A stretch of 64,000 bases of DNA from Paenibacillus terricola (lineage in GTDB: Bacteria > Bacillota > Bacilli > Paenibacillales > Paenibacillaceae), in NCBI RefSeq assembly GCF_014779765.1, contig NZ_JACXZA010000003.1, forward strand, positions 124,001 through 188,000, read 5' to 3'. The notes under the pieces were generated by a model, which was not told the DNA's origin, made no database searches, and saw only the letters and a list, made by a program, of their open reading frames with translations. Positions within the stretch are counted from its first letter, which is position 1; each line of letters opens with the position of its first letter. The position numbers and the translations under genes were made by a program. Of the stretch, positions 46,331 through 58,738 are shown piece after piece.

Positions 46331-47182
46331 ATGAGTAAAATTCTATTTGAGCTCCCTCCACTTCCCTATTACATTACAATTGGCCGCAACAAGTATGCCA
46401 AAGGCGAACAGCATCCAAACCGGCGAAACCTTGGTATATTCGACTGGTTATTCGTAGTGCAAGGGATGCTGCATATCGGTGAGGATGAATCACAGTGGGA
46501 GGTTGGGCCCGGTCAATCGCTGCTGCTGCTGCCTGACCGCTACCATTATACGACGGCTCCTTGCGAGGAGGAGACCGTGTTTTATTGGATCCATTTTGTA
46601 TACGAGGGGAAATTCAGTTCCTATTCGGATGCGGATTATTCGATGATGATCCGACATGCGTGGGCCAATCCGTATAAGCTGCGGGTGCCGCAGTATACGG
46701 CGCCTTTGCAGTTCGCGCGCATTGAACGGCTGCTTGAGCAGATGCTCGCGTACACAGAGACGACGGGGTCGACCGCCTATTGGCGAGAGCAGCAGCATTT
46801 TATGGACCTCATCCATCTGTTAGAGGAGAATGACACGGGAGACAGCACGACCAATGCGGTCATGCGGCTGGCGGAGCGAACGGAAGCCTATTTGCGGCTG
46901 CACTACCAGAAGGAACTGTCGAACGAGTCGCTGGCGGAGGAGCTGCATTTTCACCCGAACTATGTGGTGCGATGCATGAAGGAAATCTACCAGTGTACGC
47001 CGATGGAGTACTTGATGCGCTATCGACTTGAACAAGCGAAGCTGCTGCTGATTAAGACGGAATGGTCGGTCGCGCACGTTGCCGAGTACGTCGGCTTCAA
47101 CTATGTGCCGTACTTCTCGAACTGCTTCAAGCGGCACACGGGCATGAGTCCGCTCGCTTGGCGGAAGCTGCATGCGAAGTGA
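46331..47182 (+). CDS. AraC family transcriptional regulator
   Basis: About 283 residues. The N-terminal cupin-like ligand domain (about 20-160) has the Y-Y-I-T-I-G-R-N opening and a P-G-Q-S-L-L-L-L-P-D-R-Y-H-Y strand pair. The C-terminal 100 residues are two AraC helix-turn-helices (L-S-N-E-S-L-A-E-E-L-H-F-H-P-N-Y and W-S-V-A-H-V-A-E-Y-V-G-F-N-Y-V-P-Y-F-S-N-C-F-K). The start is the ATG after AGGTGAGGATATCC. It is divergent from the GH127 gene and likely responds to arabinose or a related sugar. Confidence 0.88.
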   Translation: MSKILFELPPLPYYITIGRNKYAKGEQHPNRRNLGIFDWLFVVQGMLHIGEDESQWEVGPGQSLLLLPDRYHYTTAPCEEETVFYWIHFVYEGKFSSYSDADYSMMIRHAWANPYKLRVPQYTAPLQFARIERLLEQMLAYTETTGSTAYWREQQHFMDLIHLLEENDTGDSTTNAVMRLAERTEAYLRLHYQKELSNESLAEELHFHPNYVVRCMKEIYQCTPMEYLMRYRLEQAKLLLIKTEWSVAHVAEYVGFNYVPYFSNCFKRHTGMSPLAWRKLHAK

Positions 47183-47524
47183 TAGAGCAGCTTGAGCGTA
47201 GAGATACCTTGTAGGTGCATGAGTACGTTGAGTTTCAGCGGGCAGCAGTTACAGGTGCTACGTTTGCGTTGCGGCTAACGATGCTGCAGCAGTGATGTGT
47301 GTATCGTACGATCTCCTTCATCTAACGGATGCCACAGTGGCTATTGAGGTAATTTGGATCAAATTTACAGCGTAACGGTTGTCAGCATTGCTATCGCGCT
47401 AGAATGGAGGGTTTTGTCCATTAGTTTAGTCAATAAGCCTGCTGACAACCGCTAGGACACCGAAACAGGCGCTAGTGGCGGATTAAGGTGCAGCGGCAAC
47501 CGTTAGCGCGCGCCAACACAGGCT
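47183..47524. repeat. Gene-free region with family-B type units
   Basis: No gene. CTAACGGATGCCACAGTGGC (from 47323) resembles the 263-bp repeat unit opening; inverted and related TAACGG/CCGTTAG motifs recur to 47510. Confidence 0.6.
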
Positions 47525-48214
47525 CTACAGGTGCTTCCACCAGATACCCGCGCACTCGGGAACAGTCGACCACGCATTCTCTTCAATCCGATGCGCCAGC
47601 TCTGCGCCGAAGAAGAACTCCGTCTTCTCCTTCGCTTCCGCCACATCTCCAAACGTATAGTCCGTTCGGATCCAACGATGCTCGAACCCGTATTTGTTCT
47701 CGAGTTGCTCATAGTAAGACTTCAAGAACTCGGGTGGATTAGGCGTTTCCGTTCCAGTCCCCATCGTCTCTAGAATGATGATTGTTCCGTTGGGCTTCGA
47801 TACGCGGGTCAGCTCATCCAGCACCAACGCTAGATTTTGCTCCCAATCGGAATTGTCCGTGTTCGTCAGGTAACAGATGCTCCACCCCGAAACCACCAGA
47901 TCAATCGAATGATCTGCAATCGGAAGACTGCGATGATCCGCTACTACTGTGGTCCAATTCGGAGTCGAGTTGCTGCTTGTTAATTTCTTATCCAACAAAT
48001 CCAGCATCGCACTAGAAATATCCGTACTAACTAATGACTTCGCCTCAGGCGCTATGATGCTCGAAAGTCTGCCCGACCCCGCTCCTAGGTCCAATACATT
48101 AAGTCCTTGAAAAGGTTTGATCTCCTTAATGACCGTTGTAAGATCAGGTTGCCGACTCACCATTTCCTCGTATGACATCGATGAATCCTGATAGATTTCT
48201 TCATGGCTTGTCAA
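47525..48214 (-). CDS. Class I SAM-dependent methyltransferase
   Basis: 229 residues from a TTG placed eight bases after AGGAGG. Motif I reads V-L-D-L-G-A-G-S-G-R near residue 40, motif II has S-T-D-I-S-S-A-M-L, then V-A-D-H-R-S-L-P-I-A-D and I-D-L-V-V-S-G-W-S, the usual Methyltransf_11/25 order. The substrate is unknown; small-molecule methylation is typical. It is monocistronic, next to family-B repeat DNA. Confidence 0.85.
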   Translation of the reverse strand: MTSHEEIYQDSSMSYEEMVSRQPDLTTVIKEIKPFQGLNVLDLGAGSGRLSSIIAPEAKSLVSTDISSAMLDLLDKKLTSSNSTPNWTTVVADHRSLPIADHSIDLVVSGWSICYLTNTDNSDWEQNLALVLDELTRVSKPNGTIIILETMGTGTETPNPPEFLKSYYEQLENKYGFEHRWIRTDYTFGDVAEAKEKTEFFFGAELAHRIEENAWSTVPECAGIWWKHL

Positions 48215-48465
48215 AATAGATACCTCCTAATGTAAAACTGTCGGTGCATAGTTCTGTAAATATGAGTTCGCGAAAGTATGCCGATGCTGATGTTTCGTGC
48301 TGTCCTCCGAACATTCCTCACGTTCCATCTGTAGCTCATTCTATTAGCACGGTGTAGAACAAACAATAACCGGATAATTGAGATTTTCTACGATTCAACC
48401 TATAGTTGAGTCATCGTAAATACGTCTCGATTAGTGGATTATTTGCAAAATGATTGCCATAAACT

Positions 48466-48900
48466 CTATTGAACGCCATAGATTAACCGACTCAATTCAC
48501 TGCTCTGCTTCGTGTCAATCGTATATCCTTGCTCACTATCCGCGGCTTCCACAAGCAAACCCCTTAATTCCGCACTTGGATCGATCGCCATATAATATTG
48601 CTTACTGCCCCCATCGACAAAGGTAACTTCTACATTAAACATTGGCGCATAGTCGAGCTTCCCTTCCCTTGGCTCAGCTTCGTCCAGCATCCTCTTGAAC
48701 AAAACAAGTTCATTCGGCGCACTGAACGTCTGCTCCTTGAAAGGTGCTTTGCCCGAATCTATCAATGATGACGTACTCTCCAGACGTACCTGTTGGAGTG
48801 CGATCGATTGGGATTTCTCGTTGCCGCAACCCGACAGCACCGTAGTAAGAGCTATAATGCACACAAACAGTAAACCATTAAGCCTCAACCTCATCATCAC
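48466..48900 (-). CDS. Hypothetical lipoprotein
   Basis: 144 residues with a lipoprotein signal (V-L-S-G-C-G near residue 25). The rest contains a V-E-V-T-F-V-D-G-G-S-K-Q-Y-Y-M beta hairpin and no known motif. It is secreted and anchored, function unknown. It is the first gene after the cassette-like array, on the same strand. Confidence 0.6.
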   Translation of the reverse strand: MMMRLRLNGLLFVCIIALTTVLSGCGNEKSQSIALQQVRLESTSSLIDSGKAPFKEQTFSAPNELVLFKRMLDEAEPREGKLDYAPMFNVEVTFVDGGSKQYYMAIDPSAELRGLLVEAADSEQGYTIDTKQSSELSRLIYGVQ

Positions 48901-49043
48901 AATCCCCCCTACCTTTTCTATAAATAGTCACTCTTCAAAGAAAAGTAACGATCTCCACCTTGTCCGACAGCTCAATGGTACTCTCTTCCAAAAAAAACAG
49001 AATCTTATAGAGGGCGGTGATTGAACTATCGTTTCCCGATAGG

Positions 49044-49115
49044 TTAATCTCGAAATGCCTCGGGCAGACCGAGAAGCCGCCAGTCCCGCAGCTTGGATAC
49101 GTTGTTATACGATGT
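49044..49115 (-). pseudogene. C-terminal gene remnant ending at a family A element
   Basis: A 23-residue open stretch ending W-R-L-L-G-L-P-E-A-F-R-D and a TAA that abuts the element at 49021-49043. It reads like a natural protein end, but the rest of the gene is absent. Confidence 0.45.
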
Positions 49116-49170
49116 TTATGCCTCTAACATGTTTCGCGGCTCATTTTATCACGCCCATTCAATTGGTATA

Positions 49171-50091
49171 TTAATCAGCGAGAGCACGTATTATGTTAGT
49201 TTTTGCTTCATTTAGCAACCTTTCATCTTTATCATCAACAGCCTGCATCATTATCCCAGTTGGAATATACATGGCAATCAATCGAGCTAATATCTTCGTT
49301 TCTTCATCTACATCCCCATATACATTGAAAAAGTCAGCTCGCGCATCCGGGGGTAAAAAGCTATACACAACATTCAAGTCACAAGCAGGATGTCCTATAT
49401 TGACATCTCCCCAATCAATAACCCCTGAAACTTTTCCATTCTTATCTACCAGTATATTTTTAAAATGAAGGTCACCATGTAGGAATACGTTCTTTTGTTT
49501 CACTCTTTCAGTTCTGAGCCTTTCCAAATAGTTCGTTATGGCATGATACTCTTCTTCACTAAAATGACAGGCAAGGTCGGAAATGCAATTATGCATCTTT
49601 TCCTTACGCCTCGCTATATCAGTCAGATTTCTATGGTCATGTTGAACTCCAATTTCTTGAGCTACTTTCACAGGGAATGCATGCAAACCTTTTAAAAATT
49701 GTGCGAGCGTTGTTGCTGAGTACGCGCGTTGCTTGTCAGTTAATCCGACTGGAAACTCCCCGGATAAATAGGGGTAGCCAAGGAAGGGCATAGGATAATT
49801 GTAGTCCCCTTCCCCAAAAAACATGGGTAAAGAATAGGCTATAGAAATATAATCTTTAAGCTTAGGTAATATCTTTCCTTCCATCCTTAAAGAACTGAGT
49901 GCAACTTTCCTTCTTGGAAAGCGAAATACATATTCACCCCCGACAAGAAAAACAGTGTTATCCCAGCCGTGTCCTAGTTTTTCTACGCTTTTTGAAGCTA
50001 ACTGAGGAAATTGACTGCTGATTAATTTATAAGCCAAATCTTTTGATACTTCCCATTCTGCATCCCATTGATTCGAACCGCCCATTTCCAC
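49171..50091 (-). CDS. Aminoglycoside-phosphotransferase (APH) family kinase
   Basis: 306 residues with the APH fold: Y-V-F-R-F-P-R-R-K (ATP-binding strand with the Lys/Arg region near 60), catalytic loop F-L-H-G-D-L-H-F-K-N-I-L near 200, and the metal-binding V-I-D-W-G-D that follows. The V-N-I-G-H-P-A-C-D-L segment is standard for the family. Members phosphorylate antibiotics, choline-like compounds or sugars, so resistance is not proven. The start may be GTG 50091 (six bases after GGAGG) or ATG 50085. It is one gene of the cassette-like array, followed by a gene remnant and a half element. Confidence 0.85.
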   Translation of the reverse strand: MEMGGSNQWDAEWEVSKDLAYKLISSQFPQLASKSVEKLGHGWDNTVFLVGGEYVFRFPRRKVALSSLRMEGKILPKLKDYISIAYSLPMFFGEGDYNYPMPFLGYPYLSGEFPVGLTDKQRAYSATTLAQFLKGLHAFPVKVAQEIGVQHDHRNLTDIARRKEKMHNCISDLACHFSEEEYHAITNYLERLRTERVKQKNVFLHGDLHFKNILVDKNGKVSGVIDWGDVNIGHPACDLNVVYSFLPPDARADFFNVYGDVDEETKILARLIAMYIPTGIMMQAVDDKDERLLNEAKTNIIRALAD

Positions 50092-50204
50092 CTATCGCCT
50101 CCGACATAAAAAAAGGATAGTTTCGCTTAATCGTCATGTACTATTTTACCATTAGTCATTCTTGGGTTTGATAATAAACAGTTGTAAATATTCGTTCCGT
50201 TAAT

Positions 50205-50293
50205 CTGCCCGTTACTTCAATGGAAAGGGAGCAGAACCGCGCGGTCTGCTCCCTTTTTTTTGGTTGAACTAACGTTCTCCATTAGCATAATGA
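50205..50293 (-). repeat. Family A element 1, with strong terminator hairpin
   Basis: GGGAGCAGA (50227-50235) and TCTGCTCCC (50245-50253) form the stem; runs of A and T on both sides make it usable in both directions (T8 on the plus strand). The minus-strand entry side reads GCTAATGGAGAAC then GTTAGTTCAACC, and the exit side GAAGTAACGGGCAG. Confidence 0.8.
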
Positions 50294-50379
50294 TCTAACC
50301 TGTATTTATGGTACGGTTCTCCGCGCTGTCTGTAACGGCAAGTTTTAGGGCCATCCATTGCGAGATAGCCTCGTTCAAC
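50269..50379 (-). pseudogene. Gene remnant whose last codons lie inside family A element 1
   Basis: An open frame of 36 codons contains R-G-E-P-Y-H-K-Y-R-L-D-H-Y-A-N-G-E-R and ends at the TAG in the element, so N-G-E-R-stop is encoded by the element itself. A GGAGG precedes it, but in-frame start codons are blocked by stops; an overlapping TTG frame of 27 codons fits that site instead. Confidence 0.45.
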
Positions 50380-50454
50380 TCACATTACCTCCAAGGAATT
50401 GTTTATTAAACCTAAGCCGCAGTAGCTTCTTATTGGATTGTGTTTGTTTGTACT

Positions 50455-51084
50455 CTAAATGAATCTTTCGATTCGATCCCGATATTCGTCCCACAGATAC
50501 TCCGAATTTTCAATAATCAACTTTGGAACGTCCCAAGCATCTATGATAGAACGTACAAACGCCTGACTGCCACCCCAAAGTAATCCAGCCTCACGGAAAT
50601 CTTCCTCCGATTTGAAGGACACTGGCCCCCATTCATTACCGCGAACACTACAAATAAACCTCCATTGAGCTTCCGGACTTACTTGGTAAAAGTAGATAAG
50701 AGCCGGTTGCAATGGTGACAGAATCTGTTGCAAGGACTTAGAGAATCGACGTAACTTCTCTCTGTTCATCCCCATGTGAAAAGAGGTATTGATGGTGTCC
50801 TGGAAAAAAACACTTTCGATTATGGTGACCTCATTATTGTTTAGCTGCTCATCTACGAACGACCTATACCGGGACTGGAGAAGGTGAATGAATTCGTCCG
50901 CTTGACGTTCGTCTTCGAACGAATCAAAGTGTCGGTCGAGAATAAGCAGCGGGTGATTCGATTGTTCCTCTAAGACACAGCGACTAGATATCCCTCGCTT
51001 GGTCAGTTGTTCGGAGACCATACGAGCACTTGTCGTCTTACCCGACCCCGGCATACCATCAATTATGATTATCTTAGAATTCAT
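50455..51084 (-). CDS. Small P-loop kinase
   Basis: 209 residues. The N-terminus is a Walker A strand-loop I-I-I-I-D-G-M-P-G-S-G-K-T-T, followed by a zeta-toxin/adenylate-kinase-like pattern with I-I-E-S-V-F-F-Q-D and P-A-L-I-Y-F-Y-Q-V. The start is the ATG nine bases after GGAGATACG. The family phosphorylates small molecules or nucleotide sugars; nothing identifies the target. It shares layout with the longer kinase at 53980-55128 in the same array. Confidence 0.7.
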   Translation of the reverse strand: MNSKIIIIDGMPGSGKTTSARMVSEQLTKRGISSRCVLEEQSNHPLLILDRHFDSFEDERQADEFIHLLQSRYRSFVDEQLNNNEVTIIESVFFQDTINTSFHMGMNREKLRRFSKSLQQILSPLQPALIYFYQVSPEAQWRFICSVRGNEWGPVSFKSEEDFREAGLLWGGSQAFVRSIIDAWDVPKLIIENSEYLWDEYRDRIERFI

Positions 51085-51578
51085 TTTCCGTATCTCCTCC
51101 AATTGCGCCAAGGTCTCAGCCCTCAGCTCCCATTAATATTTCCTCAATGAGACGGAGATCCAACACAAATAGCCTACAACATCTCCTTGTAAATGCAAGG
51201 AACGGAATAGGCGAATGTTTGCATGGACATAGGTAGCCCTCTGTAAGCATAGATCGGCCTCCATCTCATCGTCGATTCTAAAACGGCATCAACAAAAAAA
51301 AAACACCGATCAGGGTTAATTTGTTCATCCGTTTTATTTCCTCAACTTGATGAAACGAAAGCGATTCCCTGTCAATGCCGAAGATGTAAAACCCCTGATT
51401 GCAGCAGCTTATCAACCATCGCATGCCCGATATATTGTCGCTCCGATCCATCGTGCGTAATTGCTATCGTTCTCCGTTAGTGTAATTTTTCTACATCATA
51501 AGTCCTCCTAGGTAATCAAACTAAATGGGCAAATTTATGCTTCTTTTATTTTAATTTTATCGCACAGCTAGCGACTGC
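51085..51578. other. Gene-free cassette interval with element 5
   Basis: It holds a half family A element (51461-51480). An open minus-strand stretch starts right behind it (A-I-T-H-D-G-S-E-R-Q-Y-I-G-H-A-M, about 28 residues to a stop near 51380) without a start codon, so it looks like another gene remnant. A10 and T-rich tracts near 51290 are also present. Confidence 0.45.
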
Positions 51579-52055
51579 CTATCCTGTCATATTAATATAA
51601 GCAACACTCAGGAGCCACAAGCTAATGGGGAGCAAAGTACTCGCGAGTGTTAAATTCATGCTGAATGTTTTCTTCCATTTTAAAGAAATAATAGTGTCGG
51701 CAATTAAGAAGAAAAAGGCTGCAATCAGGCTAATGTGGAGCAATATAAGCCCGAAGCCACAATGAAAAATTGTTGAGACAGTCAAACGTAGCCATAGACG
51801 TTGAGTAACAGTACTTGCAATCAGTTCACTTATTAATGATGTGGCTACCCCATAAAGGTAAATAGCAGGTGCGGCGTATATCATATAGACGTTAATAATG
51901 CGAAATGCTTCGTGTGAGCGGGCACCGATGGAATGTATGCTTTCAGAACTGAACGGATTAGGCTCTAACCAAGCATAGGTAAGGGTGAATAAAAAGGTTG
52001 CAATTGCTGCACTTATGATTTTTCTCAAAAATAGTTGTCTAAGTGGAAAGTACAT
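51579..52055 (-). CDS. Hypothetical integral membrane protein
   Basis: 158 residues with about five hydrophobic segments (about 10-28, 52-75, 85-105, 108-125, 135-155). It has a basic N-terminus and a large first loop with A-R-S-H-E-A-F. No family recognised. It is a single cassette gene between element 2 (52111-52191) and half element 5. Confidence 0.55.
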   Translation of the reverse strand: MYFPLRQLFLRKIISAAIATFLFTLTYAWLEPNPFSSESIHSIGARSHEAFRIINVYMIYAAPAIYLYGVATSLISELIASTVTQRLWLRLTVSTIFHCGFGLILLHISLIAAFFFLIADTIISLKWKKTFSMNLTLASTLLPISLWLLSVAYINMTG

Positions 52056-52110
52056 TTTACGTAAATTCCCTCCCCCGCCTAAATTCGTCTACCTAATTTT
52101 ATCATACCAT

Positions 52111-52191
52111 CCGTTAGCATAATGAAAACGGCAGCCGTTTGCCTGGTTCGACTGCCGCGGTATCCTTATTCAACTATCGTTTCCCGTTAGT
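52111..52191 (-). repeat. Family A element 2, complete three-frame stop
   Basis: On the minus strand the entry side reads ACTAACGGGAAAC then GATAGTTGAATAA: TAA, TAG and TGA fall in the three different frames. The hairpin CGGCAG/CTGCCG lies at 52129-52157, and the exit side is CATTATGCTAACGG. Confidence 0.8.
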
Positions 52192-52287
52192 TTAATCTTC
52201 TGGAGTTTCCCAACCCTCGTCTAGAACAAGCTTACCTGTATTATCTCTGATAAAAGCGGTGCCTGGTGAAACATCAAGAAATTGGAA
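52192..52287 (-). pseudogene. C-terminal gene remnant ending at element 2
   Basis: 31 codons, ending V-L-D-E-G-W-E-T-P-E-D and a TAA that overlaps the element's first bases. There is no start codon; it begins 8 bp after the DUF7660 gene's stop. It looks like the tail of a gene displaced by the DUF7660 gene. Confidence 0.45.
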
Positions 52288-52295
52288 TCATAACT

Positions 52296-52514
52296 TCATT
52301 CATATGCCTTTCCTGCTGCAAGTGTTGTGGCGAAAACGCTCCAGGTTAAGGAATCAGAATAAGCGCCTGAATCGCTCAGCCACGCTTCCATCGCTTCCAA
52401 AAAACGATTCAGTGTCGGGTTCTCCCAGTCCTCGGCATGCTCATTTAAGTCCCGCCGCAGCTCGTGAAGATAGGCGATCAATTCGTCCTTACTGGATACC
52501 TTACTTGGATCCAC
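52296..52514 (-). CDS. DUF7660 family protein
   Basis: 72 residues from a GTG behind GAGGGGCG. The pattern S-K-D-E-L-I-A-Y-L-H-E-L-R-R-D-L, then W-E-N-P-T-L-N-R-F-L-E-A-M-E-A-W-L-S-D and the terminal W-S-V-F-A-T-x-L-x-A-G-K-A-Y-E is the DUF7660 layout as I know it: a small acidic helical protein of unknown function, often seen beside polymorphic-toxin immunity genes. It is a cassette gene between elements 6 and 2. Confidence 0.7.
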   Translation of the reverse strand: MDPSKVSSKDELIAYLHELRRDLNEHAEDWENPTLNRFLEAMEAWLSDSGAYSDSLTWSVFATTLAAGKAYE

Positions 52515-52558
52515 CGTTCAACGCCCCTCACTTTACATCTTTACTCCATTATCTGACA

Positions 52559-52647
52559 CCATTAATCTTCCCGCAACACAAAAACAGCCGCGTAGAGATG
52601 GTCTGCATCGGCTGCCTCTGAATTATCGAGCAATCGTCTCCCGTTGG
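52559..52647 (-). repeat. Family A element 6, degenerate
   Basis: CAGCCG (52585-52590) pairs with CGGCTG (52609-52614). The entry side has decayed to CCAACGGGAGACGATTGCTC, which still carries a TAA in one frame. Confidence 0.6.
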
Positions 52648-52700
52648 AATTGTGAACCTCCTCCTAATCCTGCTGGTTAGCTCAACCACGACATACATCA

Positions 52701-52991
52701 TTACAGTGTTGAGCCCTCAATCCTTATCCTTACCTTTGTTGGTCGGCGTTGACTCATATCCCCAGGCTCTGGTATTAAATCACCGTTTACTATCCGTGAT
52801 TCAAAGTAAGCTATTTTAACCTCTTCTATATCTTTGAGGAGGTCCACCATCGTAGAACTAATCGCATGACAACCCGGCAATTCTTCGACAACCCCAAAAT
52901 AATAACCTGATTGGTTATCATCCCTCGGTGGAACATACTCCGCAATAAAGTTGTAGTTCTGTATCATGTAATAAGCAATATCCTTGGTCAT
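52701..52991 (-). CDS. HicB-like antitoxin-fold protein, orphan
   Basis: 96 residues with the HicB partial RNase-H-like fold: an N-terminal strand, then Y-Y-F-G-V-V-E-E-L-P-G-C-H-A-I-S-S-T (the hallmark E-L-P-G-C segment), followed by a helix D-L-L-K-D-I-E-E-V. The C-terminus is short and lacks an obvious helix-turn-helix. No HicA toxin frame occurs on either side, so it is not a complete toxin-antitoxin pair. The start is the ATG after AAAGGTTG. It is the single gene of its cassette. Confidence 0.78.
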   Translation of the reverse strand: MTKDIAYYMIQNYNFIAEYVPPRDDNQSGYYFGVVEELPGCHAISSTMVDLLKDIEEVKIAYFESRIVNGDLIPEPGDMSQRRPTKVRIRIEGSTL

Positions 52992-53050
52992 AATCACACA
53001 ACCTTTGCGTTTAATCCATCAATCCTATAGTACCATATTTTGGAACTATC

Positions 53051-53131
53051 CTGCCCGTTACTTCAATGAAACAGGGAGCAGCGCCGCGGAGGTCTGCTCC
53101 TTATTTTGGTTGAACTATAGTTACCCATTAG
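53051..53131 (-). repeat. Family A element 7
   Basis: Nearly the same as element 1: CTGCCCGTTACTTCAATG exit side, GGAGCAG.../CTGCTCC hairpin and a GGTTGAACTATAG...CCCATTAG entry side. Confidence 0.8.
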
Positions 53132-53244
53132 TTTGTTCATTTTTTAACTACTAATCAGCTTGAAAAATGCGTTAGTATGAACAGGTTGTTCCCAATTGTT
53201 AAAGATACTGTCCTAGTTGTTTAATGGAGCATTCCTTCTCTTCG

Positions 53245-53622
53245 CTAAGCGACGAGACTGATTAAATTGTTATCGGGGTCCTTTATGATCGCATATCGCT
53301 CTCCCCACGGTGTATCTCGCGGCTCAAGGAAGCCGTCATACCCAAGCGTCGTCAACTGACGGTACACGTCGTCCAGCGCTTCGTTGCTGGAGAACTGAAA
53401 AGCGAGCTCGGTCCGGCAGCCGACAGGATCTTCCCAGCCTTCAAAAACACGCTTTACCGAATCCACCATATCGAATGCAAACACAATTCCTTCTTGCTCC
53501 ACGTCTACGTGATGCGCTTCGTCGGCGACGTCTGGAATAGCCAGCCCCAGCACGCGATAAAAATCCAACGCCCTCTTCATCTCTTCTACGTAAATCGCGA
53601 CTCGTTTCAACCTTACCGTCAT
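53245..53622 (-). CDS. VOC (glyoxalase) family protein
   Basis: 125 residues. M-T-V-R-L-K-R-V-A-I-Y-V-E-E-M-K-R-A-L-D-F-Y opens the first VOC unit. H-H-V-D-V-E in its middle and the second unit's R-D-T-P-W-G-E-R-Y-A-I-I-K-D-P-D-N-N-L-I-S-L complete the fold, with metal-binding-type H and E positions as in glyoxalase and bleomycin-resistance proteins. The start follows GGGAGCTGCAAAGC; longer frames extend upstream without support. It stands directly after an AraC fragment that may have been its regulator. Confidence 0.8.
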   Translation of the reverse strand: MTVRLKRVAIYVEEMKRALDFYRVLGLAIPDVADEAHHVDVEQEGIVFAFDMVDSVKRVFEGWEDPVGCRTELAFQFSSNEALDDVYRQLTTLGYDGFLEPRDTPWGERYAIIKDPDNNLISLVA

Positions 53623-53708
53623 GCTTTGCAGCTCCCTTCGTTTTGCTTGATTTTCACCCCCATTATAGTAATTGTCCCTCATTTCAAAATAGTAAAAAAC
53701 GGACTTCC

Positions 53709-53951
53709 TCACTCTTGCTTGGTCAGCCGTTTGAGTGGAAGTCCGTAATATCGCTTAAAAACACCAGCGAAGTGCGACTGATCATAGTACCCGTGTTGAA
53801 GCGCCAAATCCGTCAAGCTTAAATAGTCTCCGCTGTACAATTCCTCCAGCACACTTTGAAAGCGGACGATGCCGAGCATCTCCTTCGGGCTGAGGCCAAG
53901 CTCCTCTTCATAATAGGAATGCTGCCCTTTAGCTGAACGAAATGCTCCCAT
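53709..53951 (-). pseudogene. AraC-type helix-turn-helix fragment, 5' truncated
   Basis: An 80-residue C-terminal AraC piece: L-G-L-S-P-K-E-M-L-G-I-V-R-F-Q, then L-T-D-L-A-L-Q-H-G-Y-Y-D-Q-S-H-F-A-G-V-F-K-R-Y-Y-G. The first helix-turn-helix and the ligand domain are missing. The open frame breaks off 28 bp before a family A half element (53979-54000), which suggests the rest was lost when the neighbouring cassette arrived. Confidence 0.75.
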
Positions 53952-53978
53952 TTATGCACAAACCTCGACCTGGGAATA

Positions 53979-54000
53979 TTCAACTAAAGTTCCCCGTTGG
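53979..54000 (-). repeat. Family A half element 4, supplying a stop codon
   Basis: CCAACGGGGAAC then TTTAGTTGAA: the kinase gene's final codons P-T-G-N-F-S and its TGA are read from it. The hairpin and exit side are missing. Confidence 0.75.
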
Positions 54001-55128
54001 ATCATGTTCCTCAGTTAGTAAGCGAGTGAATTTGTTTCCAATCACACTCCAATCTTGAGAAATGTCCCTTCCACCAATAGTGAAACAATTTGATGAAGTC
54101 TTTTTATCGGATGACATTGAAAATAATAACTCTACGGAATTATCGCAGATATAAAATTCAGATTCGTTCTTTGGTATTAACCTCTTTTTGTAATTATTAT
54201 AACTTCCATACAATATCCCGTTTTCAAAGCTAATTTTAAACGTCAGATCATTCCAAACATATTCACCTGTAAAGATCGAGAAATGATGGTTATCTAACAT
54301 TTTATCGCAACGGCCAACTTCCAATATTCGTAATATTAATTGCTCATAATCAATCCAATTCCTCTTTGCAATATCAATTGAAAGTTTAACGAAATTTGAA
54401 TGATTGACAATCTCTTGGGCGATTTCATCGTATTCAGTCAAAAAATCAATGTATAGCTCAAAGTCATTTTTTTGTTTTCCTTGTGCGTAAGGAAAATGTC
54501 TTCCGACTTTATATGTTTCTCCTCTAATTTCAAACATCTTTCTAATTGAGCTTTCCTTATCCGATGGGGTCAGATAGATTATGACTGGATTTAATGATTT
54601 GAGTTCCTCCATTAAGGAATTAATGAATTTCATAATCACGGACTTCGAAAATCCGTTTAGAAGTAATCCATCTGTAAAAAATTGAATAATCGATCCTTCC
54701 ATGATAATTACTTCATTTTCTTCTATCACTCTTTTCACAAAAGATTGAACCTTTGTTCTTGCAATGGCCAGATATCTACTAGGATCATTTATCCAGAAAA
54801 ACGGAAAGAGTTCCTTAATTAATTCAGCCTTATTCGAGATTAAATGGCTCCGTCTCAACTCTAATAAACTCACGCAATACATGTTTTCAATAGTTGTAGT
54901 CACACCCGAGACAGAATCAAACAATGAAAGCAACTCACTAAACTCACTAAACTCAGTTTCATTCAAGTATACTTCGTTAAAAAAGTTAATTGGATGGTTA
55001 CTCGCTAATTCATGAATAAAACTATTTGGAACACCCGCCAAATCTAACTGTATAGAAACAGACCTTGCTGTCGTTGATTTTCCTGAACCTGGTATGCCTT
55101 CAAAGAGAATTAGGTTTGAATTAATCAC
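53980..55128 (-). CDS. P-loop kinase with a C-terminal extension
   Basis: 382 residues from a GTG nine bases after GAGGA. The N-terminal 270 residues begin with L-I-L-F-E-G-I-P-G-S-G-K-S-T-T (Walker A) and include I-I-M-E-G-S-I-I-Q and P-V-I-I-Y-L-T, a layout shared with the kinase at 50455-51084. The last 110 residues form a separate beta-rich region (F-S-I-F-T-G-E-Y-V-W-N-D-L-T). Codon use is much more AT-rich than in neighbouring genes, pointing to recent acquisition. Its stop codon is supplied by the family A half element. Substrate unknown. Confidence 0.7.
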   Translation of the reverse strand: MINSNLILFEGIPGSGKSTTARSVSIQLDLAGVPNSFIHELASNHPINFFNEVYLNETEFSEFSELLSLFDSVSGVTTTIENMYCVSLLELRRSHLISNKAELIKELFPFFWINDPSRYLAIARTKVQSFVKRVIEENEVIIMEGSIIQFFTDGLLLNGFSKSVIMKFINSLMEELKSLNPVIIYLTPSDKESSIRKMFEIRGETYKVGRHFPYAQGKQKNDFELYIDFLTEYDEIAQEIVNHSNFVKLSIDIAKRNWIDYEQLILRILEVGRCDKMLDNHHFSIFTGEYVWNDLTFKISFENGILYGSYNNYKKRLIPKNESEFYICDNSVELLFSMSSDKKTSSNCFTIGGRDISQDWSVIGNKFTRLLTEEHDPTGNFS

Positions 55129-55222
55129 AACGATCACTCCTCGTCATTTCATCCCTCAAAGAGGAATATACCATTTTCTAGAAGTGAAAACGGATTCAAG
55201 TATGGATTCATTTTGAATAATT

Positions 55223-55292
55223 CTGCCCGTCAGCTGAATAGACTGCTGAGAAATCAGCAGCCTGTTGTTGTCATGCAATCAATATCCATTAG
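55223..55292 (-). repeat. Family A element 8
   Basis: Perfect hairpin CTGCTGA-GAAA-TCAGCAG (55243-55260), exit side CTGCCCGTCAGCTG, entry side CATTAG next to the TAG of the gene at 55299. Confidence 0.75.
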
Positions 55293-55298
55293 CTCAAT

Positions 55299-55603
55299 CT
55301 AATACGGCACATACAGGAAACGTTCTTCATTATAAAGGATAAGCATATCATCTTTTGTGCCTGTACTTGGGGCATCATAATCATCTGACCACCTATGCAT
55401 TTCAAAAAACCTAATTTCATACCTGGTCCCAAGGCTTTATCTATGCTTCTTAAAGCTAAAACATATTTTTTTTCATCCCAAACAAATGAGGTAGGAAACT
55501 CCTTACAAAGCGATACAGGACTTTCAGGTTTAGATTGGTTAATATTATTTTCAGGTCTAAACATAAAACTGCTTAATACTAAAAAGGTATAAAAAAGCTT
55601 CAT
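55299..55603 (-). pseudogene. Frameshifted gene for a small exported protein
   Basis: From ATG 55603 (behind GAGGTGAAG) a signal-peptide-like start (M-K-L-F-Y-T-F-L-V-L-S-S-F) and K-Y-V-L-A-L-R-S-I-D-K-A-L-G-P-G are read. Near 55430 the sensible frame shifts by one base, and E-I-R-F-F-E-M-H-R-W-S-D-D-Y-D, then L-Y-N-E-E-R-F-L-Y-V-P-Y, continues to the TAG at 55299-55301. The direct frame instead gives a Met/Cys-rich nonsense tail. This is either a real lesion or a sequencing error. Family unknown. Confidence 0.6.
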
Positions 55604-55969
55604 CAACACACTTCACCTCATTGGATAAGGTGCCCAATTAAAGCCACGCTACCCCGCCCATTACTTCTTCAACGAAAACAGCACTCTAAATCAACACTGA
55701 ACATTAACAGAGCCATCTTTAGATGATTTCCGTAAGGATAAGTTTTACGAATAATATAACAAACAAAATGAAACATACTTCATTAATCTGAACTGTACTT
55801 CCAGCCTATCTCGAATTAGCATCTGTCGTCGTTTGTAAAAGTAGCGTCCACTCAAGCCAAACAAACAAAAACAGCCCTGGACGTCACCGTCCAAGGCTGC
55901 TCACTCCCTCTTCAATCCTTACCTATCTATATAACATACGACTTATCGAAATTAAACCTGAACCTAATG
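55604..55969. other. Intergenic region between the array and the GH35 gene
   Basis: Contains a half family A element (CGCCCATTACTTCTTCAACG, 55655-55682), AT-rich DNA without a gene, and the GH35 terminator. Confidence 0.55.
55861..55898 (-). terminator. Terminator of the GH35 gene
   Basis: AGCCTTGGACG-GTGA-CGTCCAGGGCT followed by GTTTTTGTTTG on the minus strand. Confidence 0.75.
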
Positions 55970-58738
55970 TTACCCTTCAATCGTCGTCCAACGCCGATTC
56001 GATTGCTCGTCGAACAACAGCTTAGCCTTCGCTGGCGATCTGCCCTCTTCATCGAACAGGACAAGCTCGTTCACGTCTTTCAGCCAATCTAGCGGCAGCT
56101 TGTAATCTTCTTGCGGACCGATCTGCCAGTAGCGGCCAAGGTCGATGCCGTTGAGCCAGACGGAGCCTTTGCTCAATCCCGTGAGACGCAGCTTCAGCTT
56201 AGCATGAACATCAGCCGGAAGCTCAGGTTTCGCGAACTCGCAGCGATGCCAAGCCGGCCCTTTCTTACTTTCCGTTGTCGACGATGCGCTTACACCCGCT
56301 TCCGATGGCACTCCATCTGCGAGCCCCGCCATACTCCACGCTCCGATTGCATTTGACGAATGGTAAGTCAGCAGCTCCAATCGATTGACTGGCGACTTCG
56401 CGTACGGCATCTCGATCACATTATCTCCAGGCTGAATGTAAGCCGAGATATCGACTGAATGGTGTGCGAACCAGTTCTGATAACCTTCCAGCGGCACTTC
56501 TTTCCCATTAATGCGAAGCGGTACGCTCACTGCACCTACGAGAACTGCCCGATCATGTCCATCCACTTGGAACGTACGCGACAGCGTCGCTTGACCATCC
56601 AATGTGTTCACGCGATCAAGATGCACCGTCTCCTCTCCATGTGACCAACCGCTGCGAATATCTGTCGCAGTGCCTTGCACATAACCCGTATCGAACAAGC
56701 CTTTAGGCTCCCCGAGATACGGCGAGAAGTTCAACCGACCCATGTTCTGAACGAGAATCTGTACATTATTACTGCCTTTATGCAGCGGAATCTCGATGGA
56801 GGAAGACCCAACTTCACGAATCAGTCCAATTTCCGCTCCATTCACATAGACTCTCGCTGTATCTTGAAGCTTCGGCAGAATGAGCGTCGTCTGCTTATCG
56901 GAATCGCTTTCGATCAAGCTGGAATAAACGATATAGCCATAAGGCTGCGAGAAGCTTGAGAAGTCCTGCGGAACCTCACACGAAACGCCTTGCACCGAAG
57001 CAAGATCCAACGTGCTAGTCACCCAACCAGCCAATTTAGGCGCCTTCAGTTTCACAGCACCAACCGGTTGCCCCGTAGTCTCGCTACTATCTCGCTCCAC
57101 TCGGAAGTCTTCTGGCCACTCTACTGCCGAAACCGAAGCATTCACTGATGCAACCAACTGTCCGCCTGCCTCTATATCCACATCGAAGCATCCGCCAAAC
57201 CATTGGCCTTTCGCAATGCGCCACGTCTGATCCATGGCAGTCGTATTCAGCACGATCACCCGCAGCTCTTGACCTCCAATGATCAAACGGACATCCTGAG
57301 GCTCATTGAAGTGATAGAAGTCAAACGTAATTGTTCTGCCATCTGCGCTCTGCGCATGCAGAATCGGCTGATCATCCGCGTATTGAATCACTTCATCAGC
57401 GTTCAATTCCACCAGCGACCGCTGTCCATCCTTGGCGTAGACGATCAACGTGTGAATACCATTCACAACCTCGTTGCACGCAATCGCAGTATTGCTAATC
57501 AAACGAACCCCATCCAGCAGCTGCAAGCCATCCAGCACCGGAACGATTTCCCCCGGGTTGACCATAACCGGCAGCGTCCTGCCGTTCTCAAGTGTTAGAT
57601 AGACCGTTTCTCGCTCTTCCTTGACGCTTCCGACGAACAGAATCCGCTGCTCTCCGTTCCTTCTGCCACGAACGGTAATGTCTTCCGGCGCCGCAATGCC
57701 AGCTGTGTCAAACGACTCCGAATCGAGCAGCAACGAGCCCGCCGCCTCCACGAACAAGGAGAACCGCTTCGCCGCCATATACTTCGGCGTCGTTCTTCCG
57801 TACTCGTTCAATGGCGCATCATAATCGTATGATGTAACCATGAAGATATCGCTGCTGCCAACCGTTCTGCCGCCATAACCAGCAAAGTTCGTCCCGCCGA
57901 AGAACATGTAATGGCTAATTCCTGTGAAACCTGTCTGAATCGCTTCAAACATGCGCTTCTCGTACAACTGTGGTGTTTTCTGCGTTGCCGCTGGCGCTCC
58001 CCAATGCTCGAACCAACCGCTCCAGAACTCCGTCACGATCTTCGGTGTATCCGGCTGCTTCTTCACCAGATTCGCATAATGATGATCGGCGCCGCTCCAG
58101 AAGTTCGCACCTTCGATCGCACCCTCAACACCGCCAACGCATGTAATGAGCGGCATATCTATCCCACAGCTCAGCAGCCCGTCCCTTAAGTGGCTCATAT
58201 AAGCAGATGCAGAAGCATCGTCTGTCAAGTAGCCGTATTCATTCTCTACCTGTACGAGAATAACCGTTCCACCTTGCGACAGTTGACGCTGACGAATGAT
58301 CTCCGTGATACGGTCGAAGTACAAGTCAACATACTTCAGATAGGTCTCATTGTACTCCCGGAACTTCACGCCTTCCTTGAGGCTGAGCCACCAAGGGAAG
58401 CCCCCAAAGTCCCACTCCGCACAGATGAATGGACCTGGTCTTGCAATGACCCACAGGCCAAGCTCTGCGCACAGGTCAAGAAACGCTCCACAGTCTGCAT
58501 CGCCCTCGAAGTTCCAATCCCCTTCATTCGGCTCATGCACGTTCCATGCAAAATACGTATCAATGCAGTTCATTCCTGCAAGCTTTGCTTTGACAAGAAC
58601 CTCCCGCCATTCTTCCTTCGGCATCCGGAAGTAGTGAATGGCCGCACTGTTCAGAAACACTCTCTTGCCATTGATGATGTAACTCTTCTCGTCGTATGTG
58701 AACTCCACGCCAGTATTGGCTGCATAAGTGGTGTGCAT
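55970..58738 (-). CDS. GH35 beta-galactosidase
   Basis: 922 residues without signal peptide. The N-terminal TIM barrel has the GH35 order: N-S-A-A-I-H-Y-F-R near residue 35, A-W-N-V-H-E-P, R-P-G-P-F-I-C-A-E-W, the acid/base in L-V-Q-V-E-N-E-Y-G near 167 and the nucleophile in V-T-E-F-W-S-G-W-F near 240, then M-F-F-G-G-T-N-F. Jelly-roll beta domains fill the C-terminal half, ending with W-L-N-G-I-D-L-G-R-Y-W. It removes terminal beta-galactose from imported oligosaccharides. The start is the ATG after GAAGGTGA. A tandem 14-bp direct repeat lies in its promoter. Confidence 0.92.
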   Translation of the reverse strand: MHTTYAANTGVEFTYDEKSYIINGKRVFLNSAAIHYFRMPKEEWREVLVKAKLAGMNCIDTYFAWNVHEPNEGDWNFEGDADCGAFLDLCAELGLWVIARPGPFICAEWDFGGFPWWLSLKEGVKFREYNETYLKYVDLYFDRITEIIRQRQLSQGGTVILVQVENEYGYLTDDASASAYMSHLRDGLLSCGIDMPLITCVGGVEGAIEGANFWSGADHHYANLVKKQPDTPKIVTEFWSGWFEHWGAPAATQKTPQLYEKRMFEAIQTGFTGISHYMFFGGTNFAGYGGRTVGSSDIFMVTSYDYDAPLNEYGRTTPKYMAAKRFSLFVEAAGSLLLDSESFDTAGIAAPEDITVRGRRNGEQRILFVGSVKEERETVYLTLENGRTLPVMVNPGEIVPVLDGLQLLDGVRLISNTAIACNEVVNGIHTLIVYAKDGQRSLVELNADEVIQYADDQPILHAQSADGRTITFDFYHFNEPQDVRLIIGGQELRVIVLNTTAMDQTWRIAKGQWFGGCFDVDIEAGGQLVASVNASVSAVEWPEDFRVERDSSETTGQPVGAVKLKAPKLAGWVTSTLDLASVQGVSCEVPQDFSSFSQPYGYIVYSSLIESDSDKQTTLILPKLQDTARVYVNGAEIGLIREVGSSSIEIPLHKGSNNVQILVQNMGRLNFSPYLGEPKGLFDTGYVQGTATDIRSGWSHGEETVHLDRVNTLDGQATLSRTFQVDGHDRAVLVGAVSVPLRINGKEVPLEGYQNWFAHHSVDISAYIQPGDNVIEMPYAKSPVNRLELLTYHSSNAIGAWSMAGLADGVPSEAGVSASSTTESKKGPAWHRCEFAKPELPADVHAKLKLRLTGLSKGSVWLNGIDLGRYWQIGPQEDYKLPLDWLKDVNELVLFDEEGRSPAKAKLLFDEQSNRRWTTIEG

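Follow-up and report, generated by a model that had tools for sequence, protein, structure and literature searches.

A stretch of 64,000 nt from the genome of Paenibacillus terricola (contig NZ_JACXZA010000003.1, positions 124,001 to 188,000; hereafter, the window) was analysed, in which single genes of the minus strand alternate with copies of one repeated element. With a probability of about 80%, this array belongs to a site-specific gene-cassette system of Bacilli, of which the window would hold an array with the recombinase missing. In particular, genome comparison suggests that an enzyme belonging to Paenibacillus relatives themselves exchanges genes at fixed sites. A total of nine full or half copies of the element were found between positions 48951 and 55675, with about one minus-strand gene per gap, as had been claimed in an earlier, sequence-only reading of the window. 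Seven of them were located by a covariance model (R1), all on the minus strand, and the two half copies were recognised by eye. R1 had been trained on 12 element copies from the window's own genome, so that four of the seven (starting at 50196, 52098, 53042 and 53913) matched by construction; the other three were independent of the training and had E-values from 0.0003 to 0.006 (419,175 bases searched). R1 matched the whole genome 32 times at E ≤ 1 (18 times at E ≤ 0.01), and these matches were clustered and spread over several contigs. Moreover, the half-motif CCGTTAGNNNAAT (≤1 mismatch) appeared 12 times in the whole window, some of these sites lying outside the array, compared to 3.5 expected, and none of 100 shuffles reached 12. 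The 22-mer right half (≤3 mismatches) appeared three times, compared to 0.00 expected, a single 21-mer (3 mismatches) had one site genome-wide, and a gapped pattern had 23 sites vs. 4 in reversed controls. No match to Rfam was obtained for positions 47000-57000 of the window at E ≤ 1.

A full element consists of two directly repeated, two-armed cores (d1 and d2) flanking a terminator-like stem, and the cassette genes span from one d2 to the next d1. The d1 core reads AACTAACG-GGRNA-ACGATAGTT and the d2 core AACTAACG-GGCAG-GATAGTT, the arms being alike and the spacers different, and the core sites are approximately 28 bp long with Xer-like arms. In gene direction, the consensus is ATTAAG-CTAACGGGAAACGATAGTTCAAT, a variable stem (e.g. 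GGCAGCCG...CGGCTGCC) and then TTGAACTAACGGGCAGGATAGTTCAAT, with an A-rich stretch before the stem and a T-rich stretch after it. Rather than the repeated terminator of the sequence-only reading, the element is two core sites around a terminator-like stem, and this stem often differs beside the same gene. No covariation was detected in the inner arms of 577 elements (own pairing 7.53 vs. 7.68 shuffled) or in the outer arms of 292 elements (6.51 vs. 6.47). Conserved and non-covarying, the arms look like protein-binding sites rather than a selected fold, and these sequence-conserved arms, together with the two core types, set the element apart from integron attC, as had been proposed.

Two sets of segments shared between genomes were used to locate the points of exchange. 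In the second set (250-4000 bp, ≥88% identity, different genome clusters), 167 segments held no recombinase, and 178 of their 334 ends lay ≤20 bp from a core, compared to 8.5% of random positions. The density of unique ends per 100 bp was 129 in d1 and 106 in d2, while it was 23 in the stem and, outside the elements, 19 at 17-60 bp and 7-10 at 60-200 bp; that is, the cores had approximately 5-7 times the density of the hairpin or the near flanks. Among these recombinase-free segments, those with both ends at a core ran from d2 to d1 (33), d1 to d1 (18), d2 to d2 (7) or d1 to d2 (5). Furthermore, different stems were found on both sides of the same gene at 96-98% identity (e.g. loci L086/L193 and L103/L197), and the APH-like cassette shared by P. 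pabuli, P. radicibacter and genome G031 at 96-97% identity had differing adjoining stems. Of 24 listed insertion events (some rows repeat one event), four had cores at both ends, with d1/d1 in two and d2/d2 in the other two; a d2 end missed by the profile was plain in the letters. These core-bounded insertions carried 1.2 to 5.6 kb. Comparing the arrays unit by unit yielded a single between-genome pair. A reading in which the element would be a single site, namely an attC with one crossover point, was rejected, as ends pile up at both d1 and d2.

Tyrosine recombinases of the Xer-like type, approximately 280-285 aa long, were found on array contigs through a search for integron integrases. Two were examined, P0001 in Paenibacillus terrigena DSM 21567 (genome G012) and P0002 in P. 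pabuli. P0001 has the tyrosine recombinase catalytic domain (PF00589, 110.1 vs. 27.1 bits) and contains R138, K162, H229, R232, H255 and Y264 (counted by hand), which we take to be the catalytic residues of these enzymes. Its nearest profiles were XerD and XerC, both far under the cut-off, and it was assigned to no named family because neither the cut-off of XerD (191 vs. 329.6 bits) nor that of the integron-integrase profile TIGR02249 (89.7 vs. 265 bits) was reached. The latter profile gave no match above its cut-off in any of 16 genomes. The closest solved chains to the recombinase were 4a8e and 1a0p, IntI4 being weaker.

Regarding occurrence, elements at E ≤ 1e−4 were present in 194 of 295 sampled Paenibacillaceae genomes and in 14 of 19 genera, with counts per genome that are lower bounds (≤14 candidates per genome were scored). 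P0001 matched at E ≤ 1e−40 in 50 of these 295 genomes, 45 of them at ≥64% identity (whole or in pieces) and five only at ≤39%. Elements were found in 42 of the 45 recombinase genomes and in 152 of the remaining 250, and at least ten elements in 25 and 38 of them, respectively (Mann-Whitney p 2e−11 for element number, a statistic that ignores kinship); this is the co-occurrence that the sequence-only reading had put forward as a check. Moreover, 254 stretches encoding relatives at E ≤ 1e−3 were obtained from named genomes, and the best 80 were taken as recombinase loci. Their hosts were mostly Paenibacillus, together with Cohnella, Brevibacillus and records labelled Bacillus. The surroundings of these 80 loci contained 351 element matches (E ≤ 0.1), and two of the 300 listed were on the opposite strand. 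In plasmid and phage collections, relatives of the recombinase appeared only below 60% identity.

The two cores also enclose the recombinase gene. Just upstream of its start codon, most of 54 loci presented a d1 core whose left arm varies, and from the d1 right arm on the sequence was similar within locus groups, some regions having no clear core; at the 3′ end of the gene, a stem and then a d2 core follow. Shared segments holding the recombinase ran from d1 to d2 in 80 of 385 cases in the first set and 38 of 102 in the second, accounting for 80 of the 86 and 38 of the 42 segments with both ends at a core. Since this module runs from d1 to d2, the recombinase occupies the slot of the stem module, and the stem module, sharing both ends with the recombinase module, may be its enzyme-less form. 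A special attI-like site 5′ of the recombinase was considered and rejected, since with a module running from d1 to d2 that site is an ordinary d1. Furthermore, in 53 of 54 loci the leader is predicted to fold so that a stretch further upstream pairs with the ribosome-binding site, in several pair variants (an example is found at L197:6420-6484), with dinucleotide-shuffle z-scores from −3.6 to −4.7 in the four tested, and this hairpin is a possible translational switch. A 2.2-kb recombinase segment was also found duplicated within one genome, from d1 to d2 and at 99.5% identity (L185:8731-10888 and L193:8731-10888), suggesting a recent move or copy.

The genome of the window lacks a full-length member of this recombinase family (best 25-33%). 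A relic was found at C1:1468142-1468246 (L263:12142-12246), where 35 C-terminal residues are preserved at 83% and followed by a d2 core, in a contig stretch bearing further elements. The earlier statement that there is no integrase is thus correct for the window itself, but relatives hold a tyrosine recombinase in their arrays and this genome keeps the relic elsewhere.

With respect to array content, the element matches listed for one contig of genome G029 span 120 kb on a single strand. The longest open reading frame (ORF) lay on the element strand in 390 of 466 inter-element intervals, while 16 intervals had no ORF of 60 aa. A sample of 100 same-strand ORFs, out of 140 drawn at random, represented 74 Pfam families, the commonest being acetyltransferase (5), integrase (3) and NUDIX (3). 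Matches to an immunity protein and to relatives of drug-modifying enzymes were also found, and defence-gene models gave ≤6 matches. In P. terrigena DSM 21567, some element matches lie within approximately 1 kb of contig starts (C3:512, C5:448, C34:160 and C36:954), and arrays may be breaking assemblies there.

In the window (Table 1), the products named by the sequence-only reading were supported above the Pfam cut-offs for the APH, DUF7660, VOC and AraC-type helix-turn-helix (HTH) genes and, as KTI12, for the first P-loop protein, whereas the HicB-like protein fell under its cut-off, the second P-loop protein had only a sub-threshold kinase match in Pfam, and the membrane and exported proteins had no family match. 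That the products are unrelated agrees with the diversity of the ORFs sampled elsewhere, except that the two P-loop proteins of the window may be related, because both match NF005250 of NCBIfam below its cut-off. The description of a cassette-like array, in which genes vary around a persisting element, was supported by the many breaks of shared segments at cores and by G001, a genome of the same genus that retains the flanking glycoside hydrolase and methyltransferase with nothing like window positions 48419-56003 between them (blastn). At the nucleotide level, the array of the window had no match at 1e−30 among the array loci compared, so the relatives of its cassettes there are at protein level only. 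These were found for the APH protein (60-62%), for the HicB-like protein (62-63% in L217 and L226), for the first P-loop protein (51% in L253, opposite to the elements' strand) and for DUF7660 (58% in L242), with weak matches for the AraC fragment and the second P-loop protein.

Table 1. Elements and genes of the array, in window positions
Feature	Positions	Strand	Evidence
Segment without counterpart in G001: array and lipoprotein-like ORF 48466-48900	48419-56003		blastn of flanks
Element E1, degenerate stem	48951-49048	-	R1 33.7 bits, E 0.00031
Cassette gene, APH-like kinase	49171-50091	-	PF01636 115 bits
Element E2	50196-50291	-	R1 80.9 bits, training copy
Cassette gene, P-loop protein (first)	50455-51111	-	KTI12 28.1 vs. 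22 bits
Half element E3, d1 core only	51465-51490	-	By eye; pattern match at 51474
Cassette gene, membrane protein	51579-52055	-	ORF; no match in Pfam and NCBIfam
Element E4	52098-52196	-	R1 89.4 bits, training copy
Cassette gene, DUF7660	52296-52514	-	PF24693 65.9 bits
Element E5	52558-52653	-	R1 27.5 bits, E 0.0059
Cassette gene, HicB-like	52701-52997	-	PF15919 22.6 bits, under cut-off 27
Element E6	53042-53137	-	R1 79.5 bits, training copy
Cassette gene, VOC/glyoxalase	53245-53712	-	PF00903 48.7 bits
AraC-type HTH fragment, start within E7	53709-53951	-	PF12833 44.6 bits
Element E7	53913-54006	-	R1 56.5 bits, training copy
Cassette gene, second P-loop protein, end within E7	53980-55137	-	ORF; NF005250 101.7 bits, under cut-off
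Element E8	55214-55298	-	R1 30.5 bits, E 0.0014
Cassette ORF, exported protein	55289-55609	-	ORF; no match in Pfam and NCBIfam
Half element E9 with a d2 core alone, at the upstream array edge	55652-55675	-	By eye

Beyond the family, 34 of 398 genomes of the class matched the recombinase at E ≤ 1e−50; identity was 47-53% in 22 of them and ≥73% in four that belong to two other families. Among 16 regions around these matches, L340 and L341 (both in G571) and L346 (G427) were clearly above the shuffled dyad counts, L352 was doubtful and the 12 others were not above them, by a counter that is insensitive, as known Paenibacillus arrays gave only 5 vs. 3.2 (L197) and 14 vs. 6.0 (L250). The cleanest region, L341, had AACTAACG-GGTGC-TTTAGTT as d1 and AACTAACG-GGGCAG-GTTAGTT as d2, all the listed sites being on one strand. 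Within it (L341:7809-9110), small genes are separated by d2 sites with no listed d1 nearby, which is perhaps the simplest form of a cassette. Repeats of the same plan were also found near recombinases of approximately 50% identity in two plasmids labelled Arthrobacter citreus and Sporosarcina psychrophila, and at most a trace of them in the Peribacillus simplex plasmid L244. The plasmid labelled Arthrobacter citreus (L246, CP053689.1) carries a Bacilli-type recombinase together with array-like repeats, and this label may be wrong. A clade of recombinases at approximately 50% identity extends to other Bacilli, at least one of which has a clean array built on the same plan.

With less confidence than for the cassette system as such, it is rather probable that Bacilli have a gene-capture system of their own that is non-integron by these tests, combining a self-mobile Xer-like recombinase, a slot common to this enzyme and an enzyme-less terminator module, two site types, large arrays and a leader hairpin by which the enzyme's own translation would be controlled. 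In the cassette system as first proposed above, the recombinase would cut and join within the spacers of both cores, for the most part pairing like with like (d1/d1, d2/d2). Exchange between like sites would free gene-plus-terminator units as circles and insert circles at like sites, the genes acquiring one orientation because the sites point one way, while the stem would insulate each cassette gene. The recombinase would travel as one module and often decay, leaving orphan arrays such as that of the window.

Several observations weigh against the proposed cassette system. All its support is comparative: it is from genomes that we infer recombination, the same-type rule and the movement of the enzyme module, and the array loci compared had been picked for their high number of elements. 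A total of 173 of 305 unique segment ends lay >200 bp from any element, both ends were away from cores in 268 of the 716 segments of the first set (a total that includes those with the recombinase), and 20 of the 24 listed insertion events lacked a core on both sides. Genes often recur in other genomes with neither of their adjoining stems, from d2 to d1, and no single d1-d1 or d2-d2 exchange yields such segments; the duplication from d1 to d2 in L185/L193 is likewise at odds with a strict same-type rule. In 60 of the 466 inter-element intervals, the longest ORF was on the strand opposite to the elements. The co-occurrence of recombinase and elements ignores phylogeny and uses element counts that are lower bounds, and three of the 45 recombinase genomes (G035, G278 and G305) had no element at E ≤ 1e−4, weaker ones being found in G035 (one at 0.002) and beside the recombinase of G305 (L259). 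As for the empty site of G001, it fits gain or loss alike, since the flanking hydrolase was present in only one of the nine genomes tried.

Four other explanations were weighed, of which the action of the host XerC/XerD, as in dif modules and with the recombinase gene as a passenger, survives best, being nonetheless unlikely. The length of the sites, their Xer-like arms and a recombinase nearest to the XerC/XerD profiles would suit it, as would the elements found in 152 of the 250 genomes without such a recombinase, but the recombinase is bounded by the very same sites and accompanies many elements. In the dif modules of Acinetobacter (pdif, XerC/XerD), genes are also arranged in modules between short two-armed Xer-type sites, with two module kinds. 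Exchange in dif modules takes place between sites with like spacers, a rule that the four core-bounded insertions here would follow and that the L185/L193 duplication would break. Neighbouring dif sites are in inverse orientation there, while d1 and d2 are direct repeats pointing one way; here, moreover, the sites enclose a recombinase gene, and the arrays are chromosomal, in Bacilli, with terminator-like modules between the genes.

Less probable again is a divergent integron, whose attC, read as a folded single strand, would be the element and whose distant IntI would be the recombinase. The resemblance to integrons (IntI, attI, attC) includes a tandem array of unrelated single genes in one orientation, which is an integron criterion, as well as the repeated site between them with two boxes around a variable stem, the tyrosine recombinase and the enzyme-less arrays (CALIN). 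In integrons, it is the fold of attC, not its sequence, that is conserved; a gene moves together with its own attC through one crossover point, and the integrase lies next to attI at one end of the array, pointing away from the cassettes. Here, in contrast, the sites are conserved in sequence without covariation, breaks occur at both of two core types, and the recombinase is a module inside the arrays and on the array strand, with no end-placed attI seen. Its scores were also below the integron cut-off and nearer to the XerC/XerD profiles. The proposed system works like both an integron and the dif modules of Acinetobacter, and these tests place it in neither class.

A still weaker case can be made for no site-specific system at all, the elements being plain terminators in gene-exchange hot spots and the breaks resulting from homologous recombination between repeats. 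The terminator-like stem, the many shared ends away from the cores and the 20 insertions of the same kind would be expected of it; however, ends accumulate at the cores rather than within the stem or the close flanks, the same genes occur with different stems, and the associated recombinase is core-bounded. A common terminator with no boundary conservation, named by the sequence-only reading as a case that would speak against it, does not describe the element. The least probable explanation is that the element is no more than a miniature inverted-repeat transposable element (MITE) belonging to the recombinase module and inserted between genes that it does not move, for which speaks the stem module with both ends of its presumed parent, like an enzyme-less form, and against which speak the kilobase-long cargo of the core insertions and genes that are themselves shared with breaks at both cores and so appear to move too, unlike with MITEs.

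No published description of the system was found in the open-licence literature, preprints being outside this scope. In the IntegronFinder 2.0 report (PMC9024848), integrons are described as very rare in Firmicutes, for reasons that are unclear, with one complete integron (Limnochorda pilosa) and a few CALIN. If the proposed cassette system is true, Bacilli would use a different device for the integron's job, and many of the variable small genes of these bacteria would be accounted for. Furthermore, it would provide a compact recombinase with short defined sites and a second test case for how cassette arrays arise and are expressed.

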